Assembly (NCBI RefSeq): GCF_005116455.1 | Contig: NZ_SWBP01000001.1 | Coordinates: 806,001-870,000, forward strand | Origin: Pedobacter cryophilus | GTDB taxonomy: Bacteria; Bacteroidota; Bacteroidia; Sphingobacteriales; Sphingobacteriaceae | Reading direction: 5' to 3' | DNA length: 64,000 nt | Part shown: positions 3,226 to 30,886 of the stretch, in pieces | How positions within the stretch are numbered: position 1 is the stretch's first letter | Layout: each line of letters opens with the position of its first letter | Notes under the pieces: model-generated | The model's database searches: none | What the model was told of the DNA's origin: nothing | What the model saw: only the letters and a program-made list of their open reading frames with translations | Program-made: the position numbers and the translations under genes

Positions 3226-4356
3226 TCAAACCTTAATGATGATGTTTTTACGATACATCATCCATAAAATAAACCACCAAATCAAAATAAAAGTAATTGC
3301 TCCCGCTAAAGAAGCATTGTAAGGAGAAAAGTTGGGCGTATAAAAAGTTTCGTAAAGCCAAACTTTAGCTCCTACTTCTGTCCCGTTTAAATCTAACTTT
3401 ATTAAGCTTAAAATTCTTGGGATTAAACCCGAAGCAAAAAATACGGTAATGGCATTTACACCATAAACCACAAATGGAGAAGTAAATTTTGTATAGCCTT
3501 TTACATCTATTAACCAATAGCACAAAGCCAAACCAATAGCAGCCAAACCACCAGCATACATCACATAAGAACTGGTCCAAAGAGATTTATTGATTGGGAA
3601 AGTTAAATCCCAAATTAAACCTATTATTACCGCTAGGGTTCCTAACGTAAATATCCAGGCAATTTTATCGGCTTCAGCCTGATCTTTTTTCTTCAATATG
3701 CCGCCAATCATCAATCCAAATAAACCAGTTCCTATAGCTGGTAGTGTACTCAAAATTCCTTCGGGGTCCCAAGTTTTAGATTGTTTCCAGGTGTGATTTT
3801 CGGTCAATATTAACCTATCTAACCAAGCGCCTAAATTTGTTTCTTTCTCTAGGTTGGCGTAACCAATATCTGGCACAGGAATTAAAGTCATGATAGCCCA
3901 GTAGCCCACTAATATTCCAAAAAACCACTTCCAATAAGCTTTTGGGTTAATTTTTATAAAAATTACAGCACAAAAAAAGTAAACAATTGCAATTCTTTGT
4001 AAAACACCCAATATCCTCACGGTAGTAAAATCAAAGAAAGGAAACAACGATAAAAATAAACCTAAACCAAAAAGAACAGCCGATCTTTTAAGTGCACTAA
4101 GAATAAGTTGTTGATGATTTTCTGAATGCTCTTTTTTAGAACTTAAAGCAAATACAATAGATACGCCAACAATAAATAAAAAGAAAGGAAAAATAAGATC
4201 TGTAGGAGTACAACCATTCCACGCTGCATGTTCTAAAGGAGCGTAAATATGCCCCCAATCACCAGGGTTGTTTACTAAAATCATGGCGGCAACCGTAATT
4301 CCTCTAAATACATCAAGAGAACGCAATCTGTGTTTTAGGTTTGGTGTTTGGGTCAT
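3226..4356 (-). CDS. NagX-like membrane acetyltransferase (HGSNAT/DUF5009 family)
   Basis: A multi-pass inner membrane protein of the heparan-alpha-glucosaminide N-acetyltransferase-like family; bacterial NagX genes lie in amino-sugar loci. The N-terminal RLRSLDVFRGITVAAMILVN and the following NNPGDWGHIYAPLEHAAWNG are signature segments. TPTDLIFPFFLFIVG follows, and about ten hydrophobic segments run to the C-terminus. The start chosen is the ATG at 4356 (MTQTPNLKHRLRSL); an in-frame ATG 11 codons upstream at 4389 would add residues without family likeness. It ends 8 bases from the lptC stop (convergent). Its neighbour on the same strand is a NagB fusion, which supports a part in amino-sugar use or modification. 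The exact acceptor sugar is unknown. Confidence 0.82.
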   Translation of the reverse strand: MTQTPNLKHRLRSLDVFRGITVAAMILVNNPGDWGHIYAPLEHAAWNGCTPTDLIFPFFLFIVGVSIVFALSSKKEHSENHQQLILSALKRSAVLFGLGLFLSLFPFFDFTTVRILGVLQRIAIVYFFCAVIFIKINPKAYWKWFFGILVGYWAIMTLIPVPDIGYANLEKETNLGAWLDRLILTENHTWKQSKTWDPEGILSTLPAIGTGLFGLMIGGILKKKDQAEADKIAWIFTLGTLAVIIGLIWDLTFPINKSLWTSSYVMYAGGLAAIGLALCYWLIDVKGYTKFTSPFVVYGVNAITVFFASGLIPRILSLIKLDLNGTEVGAKVWLYETFYTPNFSPYNASLAGAITFILIWWFILWMMYRKNIIIKV

Positions 4357-29946: not shown

Positions 29947-30107
29947 AACCGAAATACAATTCCTTCCAATCAGGGTTTCTAGCAGAGACCCTGTTTTGTT
30001 TTAAACTTATTTTAGGATAGTTGTCAATGTCTTGTTTAGCTTAAATAAATTATTACTTTTAACTATCTATTTAATATATCTAAAATTGAATTACATATAT
30101 GAAATAT

Positions 30108-30127
30108 ATACGCTATAGATAGCGTAT
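30108..30127. promoter_or_regulatory. Perfect 8-bp palindrome beside the cassette boundary
   Basis: ATACGCTA-TAGA-TAGCGTAT is an exact dyad ending 9 bases before the cassette-like 5-prime edge at 30136/30137 and 42 bases before the lipoprotein start. It may be a regulator-binding site or part of the recombination target; the sequence alone does not decide. Confidence 0.4.
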
Positions 30128-30136
30128 AGCAAGTAG

Positions 30137-30879
30137 TTAGCAGCAACCTTAACAGACGACACCTACATTATGAGACTTTTACTTTTAATATTGACAATTT
30201 CCCTGACAAGTTGTTTTAATCAGACAAATAAAGTTGATGATTATAAAGTTGACGATTTTACCGAAGACGAACTTATTTGGTACAAGCCATTTACAAAAAC
30301 AGACTCGGTTATCTTCATTTCAGACAAAGGTGAAAAGGACACGATTATTTTTATAGCACCAGAATCTGCAAGCGACTCGACAAGGGACTTTGAACAAGGA
30401 TTTTCAAATACGAATTACTTGACGGTTGTGTACGAATTTTCAAAAGGCAGTTATCATCAGTCGGCAATAACGGGAGACGGCAAGACACGTTACGACCATT
30501 GGTTCGTAAATTCATCTAAATCTTCGTCTGGTTATGGTAGTGTTGAAATAACATTTATTGGAACATTTTTTAGTGACAGCTTGAAAAACATTCAAAAAGT
30601 AAACGACACAACATATTTTTTTGACAGTAACAAAGCAGACTACTCGGGAATGAATGTTGAAAAAGAAATTAACAATTTTACTTTTAACGCCAGACTTGGA
30701 GTAACAGAATTTGTGGACGACAGAAACATCAAATGGAAGAGAAAATAAAGGCAGCTGCTAACAGCGGCTTACCGCAAGTGGGGGTGCGAGGTAACTTGTA
30801 GCTTTGAGCTTTTATTTTACATTTGTTGTAGCCGACAGTTGGTCGTTCCAAAACCCCACCTGCGGTAAGCCGCAAAACG
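30137..30879 (+). mobile_element. Integron-cassette-like mobile unit without an integrase
   Basis: The left edge reads G-TTAGCAGC (30136-30144). The right part is an imperfect palindrome starting GCTGCTAAC (30754-30762), the exact reverse complement of the left edge, and ending CG-TTAAAGC (30879-30886). A cassette excised between the two G-TT points would form a circle whose outer core boxes pair perfectly, as in integron cassettes. It carries one gene with a 33-base leader and no visible promoter inside, also typical. No integrase or second cassette lies in the window, so it would be a lone cassette. The codon use of its gene differs from the neighbours. Confidence 0.6.
30170..30748 (+). CDS. 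Orphan lipoprotein carried on the cassette-like element
   Basis: A 192-residue predicted lipoprotein: short signal peptide LLLLILTISLTSC with the acylated Cys at residue 15, then an acidic linker (VDDYKVDDFTEDE). The rest is beta-rich with no family I recognise (e.g. YLTVVYEFSKGSYHQSAITG, GSVEITFIGTFF). Asp is encoded by GAC in 15 of 18 cases, counted by hand, against 4 of 19 in truA next door, pointing to foreign origin. The start is 33 bases inside the cassette edge and the stop only 5 bases before the palindrome region. Function unknown. Confidence 0.8.
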   Translation: MRLLLLILTISLTSCFNQTNKVDDYKVDDFTEDELIWYKPFTKTDSVIFISDKGEKDTIIFIAPESASDSTRDFEQGFSNTNYLTVVYEFSKGSYHQSAITGDGKTRYDHWFVNSSKSSSGYGSVEITFIGTFFSDSLKNIQKVNDTTYFFDSNKADYSGMNVEKEINNFTFNARLGVTEFVDDRNIKWKRK

Positions 30880-30886
30880 TTAAAGC
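30754..30886 (+). repeat. attC-like recombination palindrome
   Basis: A 133-bp imperfect palindrome. The left outer box is TGCTAAC, then GCGGCTTACCGCA (30764-30776) and GTGGGGGT. The right side mirrors these with ACCCCACC, TGCGGTAAGCCGC (30861-30873) and outer box GTTAAAGC. The inner arms match with one A/G mismatch and one extra G on the left arm, resembling the extrahelical bases of attC sites. A ~65-base unpaired centre separates the arms. TAAC...GTTA agree with the integron core; the flanking bases deviate from RYYYAAC/GTTRRRY. Confidence 0.6.

Follow-up and report, generated by a model that had tools for sequence, protein, structure and literature searches.

A single gene cassette in Pedobacter cryophilus points to an integron-like capture system of Bacteroidota

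A short stretch of the Pedobacter cryophilus genome raises the question of what brought an apparent integron cassette into a phylum in which integrons are reported to be very rare; there, only In0 elements had been known before a single complete integron was reported, in Salinibacter (PMC9024848, the IntegronFinder 2 study). It lies in a window of 64,000 nucleotides, the whole stretch of DNA analysed here, and the initial annotation had read it as a lone cassette-like element with an attC-like palindrome and no integrase, inserted by a recombinase acting from elsewhere. Three points are addressed: whether the element is a cassette, which recombinase could have moved it, and how the system to which it belongs relates to known integrons.

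The element is a 743-bp cassette (30137..30879, on the + strand like the other features of the locus unless stated), delimited by two predicted G|TT crossover points through sequence reading and the match between its edge and its first box. The 5' edge, G|TTAGCAGC (30136..30144), is the complement of the first attC box: GCTGCTAAC at 30754-30762 is the exact reverse complement of GTTAGCAGC at 30136-30144, which confirms the box pair as annotated. Taken alone, this pair is weak evidence, because chance alone should produce its 8-mer CTGCTAAC 1.4 times in the window. Between the boxes lies a gene of 192 aa (30170..30748), with a lipoprotein-like signal (LTSC) according to its translation and domain search; a Pfam search gave no match for it, and no homologue was found among 120 genomes of the host's family.

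The attC-like hairpin site that closes the cassette (133 bp, 30754..30886), recognised by folding, hairpin scan and covariance model, is a palindrome with 13-bp perfect inner arms, GCGGCTTACCGCA on the left (30764..30776) and TGCGGTAAGCCGC on the right (30861..30873), placed by sequence, fold and arm alignment. Alignment of sites adds a conserved A.C mismatch, its A at 30777 and its partner C at 30860. The palindrome terminates in CG|TTAAAGC; the right outer box, G|TTAAAGC, is read at 30879..30886, and its TTAAAGC would be part of the pre-insertion site. The length, inner arms and end of the palindrome are those given in the initial annotation. In a shuffle test the folded strand does better than 200/200 dinucleotide shuffles (z -3.2), and in a scan of the 64-kb window for AAC..GTT hairpins the site ranks first on both strands. 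It reaches E 1.7e-18 against covariance model R1, being itself among the sequences from which the model was built, and an Rfam search returned no family above gathering score. The outer boxes do deviate from RYYYAAC/GTTRRRY, as had been remarked.

The cassette edge overlaps a second kind of site. At 30094..30138 a genome search places an attI-like site, CATATATGAAATATATACGCTATAGATAGCGTATAGCAAGTAGTT, whose palindrome, TATACGCTA / TAGCGTATA, occupies 30104..30128 (no strand assigned). This 45-bp site has 11 copies in the genome (L018-L028), with GTT after the palindrome every time. One copy, on contig C11, is directly 3' of a tyrosine recombinase gene, and the other ten are without an adjacent recombinase. 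The same contig was reached through the first box: GCTGCTAAC has 14 matches in the genome, two of them the window's own, and a pair on C11 repeats the arrangement of the window, with a GTTAGCAGC edge, two genes and a GCTGCTAAC hairpin. The C11 edge is preceded by ATATATACGCTATAGGTAGCGCATATATACTA, nearly the same sequence as before the window edge, and this stretch is immediately 3' of the gene of a 475-aa tyrosine recombinase, in the same direction. The element is thus neither lone, the genome having 15 attC sites by covariance model (E below 1e-5) besides the 11 attI-like copies, nor devoid of an integrase candidate, a matching recombinase being encoded outside the window.

Upstream of the window's attI-like site, sequence reading and a leader comparison of six copies delineate a promoter-like leader (TTG, 19 bases, TACTTTTA; 30032..30061), which we take to resemble the Bacteroidota -33/-7 promoter type. 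Similar leaders precede five other dispersed attI-like sites, making six copies with that of the window, and this conserved leader is a putative promoter. Elsewhere in this genome, locus L031 (G000:C9:848000-866000) has attI-like sites at 4084 and 6397 of the minus strand, the second of which, with the 150-180 bp before it, is a 90% identical repeat of the first; the repeat starts at the GTT closing the attC of the first cassette, so that one end of this tandem duplication coincides with a crossover point. The genome's own cassettes (L035 minus 4647; L031 minus 6996) encode an OLD-like ATPase with a TOPRIM domain, of a type associated with anti-phage defence, as well as a protein with a GIY-YIG nuclease domain.

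Site-by-site agreement of the letters of edge and first box is the hallmark of integron cassettes, and it recurs well beyond the window. At 8 of the 11 attI-like sites, the complement of the site's own edge (7-10 nt or longer) is present in the box ahead of the downstream hairpin, in letters specific to that site; a clean matching box was not seen at the other three. Over 38 pairs of consecutive hairpins, located without use of the edges, the edge match amounts to 5.84 of 7 nt, and shuffling lowers it to 3.11 +/- 0.19; the same complementarity runs along arrays in relatives. The cassette boundaries and the attC-like nature of the palindrome, as first proposed, are upheld.

The arrays were followed by walking from an edge to its complementary box, then to the hairpin and the next edge. 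They comprise up to ~14 cassettes in G001 (one step of that walk resting on a weak box match), 8 in G028, 6 in G014, and 5 in both G008 and G056. In 81 of 84 cassettes the longest ORF is forward, and its start is at a median of 44 bp from the edge. Strong matches to the recombinase family were obtained in the majority of 60 relatives, and most of the genes examined have, 3' and in the same direction, a hairpin-containing stretch ending in ...AGTTA; in many genomes a cassette edge follows 60-180 bp 3' of the gene, making the stretch attI-like by anatomy. Flavobacterium, Algoriphagus, Cyclobacterium, Aquiflexum, Rufibacter and Winogradskyella are among the named Bacteroidota with such loci. In several relatives the recombinase genes are often at contig ends (e.g. 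L041, L048, L049, L052), as would happen if assemblies broke at repeated attC sites, in which case array sizes in draft genomes are underestimated.

Further copies of the palindrome, the search for which had been proposed, proved abundant with the covariance model, in relatives as in the host genome. Sites are found in 62 of 118 Bacteroidota genomes (E 1e-4) and in 4/4 Bacteroidota controls; none was found in 22 non-Bacteroidota genomes, a set that includes five with IntI. Flavobacterium enshiense DK69 (G194, L141) has 72 attC-like sites, a number comparable to that of large Vibrio chromosomal integrons, and some of them are ~157 bp instead of 125 bp. A pattern search for the inner arms of the window alone gave no second good copy, missing the other sites because the arms vary.

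A cassette of this kind is shared between genomes with exact ends, a sign of movement. G001, of the same genus as the window's genome (Sphingobacteriales), and F. enshiense, of another order, have in common a 1435-bp cassette that carries a MerT/HMA-domain gene, at 94% identity; the homology begins at the edge G and stops no more than a few bases from the next predicted crossover, and the flanks are unrelated. Within one array, a 520-bp cassette is present twice, 100% identical. The window locus itself is empty in two relatives, G011 and G017, where the peptidase and pseudouridine-synthase-like genes are 20-30 bp apart, without cassette and without attI-like site; the same gene interval measures 1.35 kb in the window's genome. 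The initial proposal that the cassette was inserted by a recombinase with no gene next to it is supported, and the orthologous locus that could have spoken against it lacks the element. The locus without cassette that had been anticipated in relatives thus exists, and the empty site G|TTAAAGCG that had been anticipated with it was not seen, because the relatives without the cassette are also without the attI-like site.

The attC-like fold is built on a constant asymmetric unpaired spacer and a variable middle. In 43/58 sites the arms pair in one register, the left base i after AAC facing the right base i+4 before GTT, that is with an asymmetric spacer and no bulges, and in this constant register extrahelical bases, defined as in PMC2727003, were not found in the stem. 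Stem cells are paired at 89.9%, against 62.3% when shuffled, and the covariation score is 0.657 against 0.145, a signal gone after a slide of one column; this count carries some circularity, since a scan favouring pairing supplied the sites. No such circularity affects the conserved mismatch, the edge matches with their site-specific letters or the shared cassette. The mismatch, at position 15, is of A.C type and unpaired on the top strand in 22/22 aligned sites, and where it is A.C there, its bottom-strand counterpart is a T.G wobble. For the arms alone, folding is better on the bottom strand in 45/52 sites (p 1e-8), with a smaller bias for whole sites (34/53), and in its folded form the bottom strand would be the recombination substrate. 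Integron sites choose their strand mainly via extrahelical bases, and an integron site without them still recombined, with part of its strand specificity lost (PMC2727003).

The recombinase family matches both XerA and integron-integrase models, with a score of 196.8 against the integron-integrase (TIGR02249) cut-off of 265, and can be aligned to IntI4 only if a gap is bridged. In every aligned member the IntI-specific region, 31 + about 11 residues of IntI1, is missing (41 residues shorter there), and two catalytic motifs lie 65-66 residues apart in nearly all members, versus 107 in five IntI, taken from other phyla. This additional domain is a defining character of IntI (PMC9668308), and its I2 helix is the part docking extrahelical bases (PMC7790495). 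An SPLD-type C-terminus is common to the family and IntI. In the tree, IntI forms a single fully supported clade and the Bacteroidota family stands apart; as a joint clade of the two is not rejected (p 0.275), common ancestry before I2 and independent origin are both possible. The predicted structure of the Flavobacterium aciduliphilum member (pLDDT 84.8, pTM 0.55) has XerA and IntI4 as its nearest folds. Tree neighbours of the family include alphaproteobacterial recombinases and one from Variovorax, without the IntI insertion (L173, L174, L188, L189, L193, L196, L203, L204), around which the array walk gave no arrays.

These results bear on three other explanations of the locus. The recombinase could be a divergent IntI, and the system an ordinary integron of the known family; that it resembles integron-integrase models and IntI4 no less than XerA, shares the C-terminus and could form a joint clade with IntI speaks for this, and yet the score below cut-off, the missing region and shorter motif spacing, the separate IntI clade, the stems devoid of extrahelical bases and the silence of the covariance model in the five IntI-carrying genomes make it improbable. 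It is extremely improbable that the palindrome is some other repeat, such as a terminator, a REP-like element or a transposon end, with a fortuitous edge match: common as intergenic palindromes are, and frequent as the 8-mer would be by chance, such a repeat accounts neither for the site-by-site complementarity, nor for the arrays and the shared cassette with exact ends, nor does it agree with the Rfam result. A chance palindrome was ruled out by recurrence, the shuffle test and the shared cassette. Housekeeping XerC/XerD could alternatively move the cassettes at dif-like sites, with no part for a dedicated recombinase, since the attI-like site is a short, Xer-site-like palindrome and the genome has Xer-type genes; this is very improbable, as the site is 3' of a dedicated gene across the family, varies in sequence by recombinase lineage, unlike a single genome-wide dif, and serves cassettes terminating in long attC-like folds.

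We therefore assign the one cassette of the window, with high confidence, to an integron-like system of Bacteroidota whose recombinase is related to XerA and IntI and lacks the I2 domain. Such a tyrosine recombinase would recombine attC-like hairpins, once folded, with the attI-like site located just 3' of its own gene and co-directional with it. Circular cassettes, each a promoterless gene with one attC, would enter through strand exchange at G|TT and could be excised again. In this genome the attI-like site is additionally dispersed, as ten recombinase-less copies, several with the promoter-like leader. The window cassette probably entered one of these dispersed copies, either by the action in trans of the C11 recombinase or by that of a neighbouring recombinase since lost.

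The latter possibility can be extended to all dispersed sites, within the same system: they could be relics of complete integrons from which the recombinase has been deleted, the insertion having then occurred in cis, with no present action in trans. This is a tentative reading, to which we give less than even weight. It fits with two attI-like copies (L026, L025) that retain the 3' end of a recombinase gene, and with the left ends of the dispersed copies, which differ; a fixed left end, sought by comparing the copies, was not found. Against it, six copies have another, promoter-like leader in common, and 11 copies are present here, whereas the palindrome is absent from 16 of 17 same-genus genomes, the remaining one having a single weaker match, which argues for a recent spread of the module itself. 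For the window site, we would put action in trans beside capture by a neighbouring recombinase since lost.

The platform may also be mobile as a whole, since Pontibacter kalidii plasmid pls1, a mobilizable plasmid, carries a full-length recombinase relative (L124, 7989-9443) followed 3' by an attI-like stretch; there, the array walk gave no clean first cassette. If the integron-like reading of the system is true, a gene-capture platform exists in about half of Bacteroidota genomes, overlooked by search tools for which the IntI domain is a requirement, and it carries genes between orders, among them the MerT/HMA-domain (mercury-transport-like) cassette, with one recombinase of the family on a plasmid. 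We found no description of this Bacteroidota system in open papers; preprints and most subscription journals were beyond the search, so that a prior account is possible.

We regard the system as a new phylum-wide variant of integron-like capture. The distinct lineage of sites that had been suspected from the outer boxes is upheld, with a phylum-wide scope and a non-IntI recombinase added. It is integron-like in its working, yet not a member of the IntI family by two tested features, because the IntI-specific domain is missing and the stems are without extrahelical bases. As current work holds IntI to have acquired single-strand recombination through the I2 helix, the reader of extrahelical bases (PMC7790495), the joint absence of this helix and of these bases, with the cassette logic intact, bears on the origin of integrons. 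We lean, with moderate confidence, towards a second, separate kind of integron, native to Bacteroidota, in which wobble pairs and spacer asymmetry would take over strand choice, and which would be either an independent invention or a survivor from before the IntI domain.

Several known systems resemble this one in part. CALIN, as defined with the attC model of IntegronFinder, are clusters of at least two attC sites that have no integron integrase near them. Like them, the window site is without an adjacent recombinase; it differs in being single within the window and joined to an attI-like site, with a matching recombinase in the genome. The recombinase finds its best sequence and fold matches among XerA-type and 'integron-like' subgroup tyrosine recombinases (PMC8138268); for the insertion-less members of that subgroup, cassette arrays or attC-like sites were not found described. 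Spirochaete (Treponema) integrons share an unusual integrase orientation, typical Spirochaetota IntIs being in reverse orientation (PMC9668308), but their enzymes are IntI, which the Bacteroidota family is not. There is also a likeness in organisation to IntI integrons (class 1, Vibrio chromosomal): a recombinase gene beside an attI site, one-directional arrays of promoterless cassettes, folded attC-like sites with AAC/GTT outer boxes, an unpaired spacer and a variable end, and an edge complementary to the cassette's own first box. The Bacteroidota system nevertheless differs from them in having neither the IntI-specific domain nor extrahelical bases, in its outer boxes off the RYYYAAC/GTTRRRY consensus, in its dispersed, recombinase-less attI-like copies, and in a recombinase gene that is co-directional with its array, the attI-like site lying behind the stop codon.
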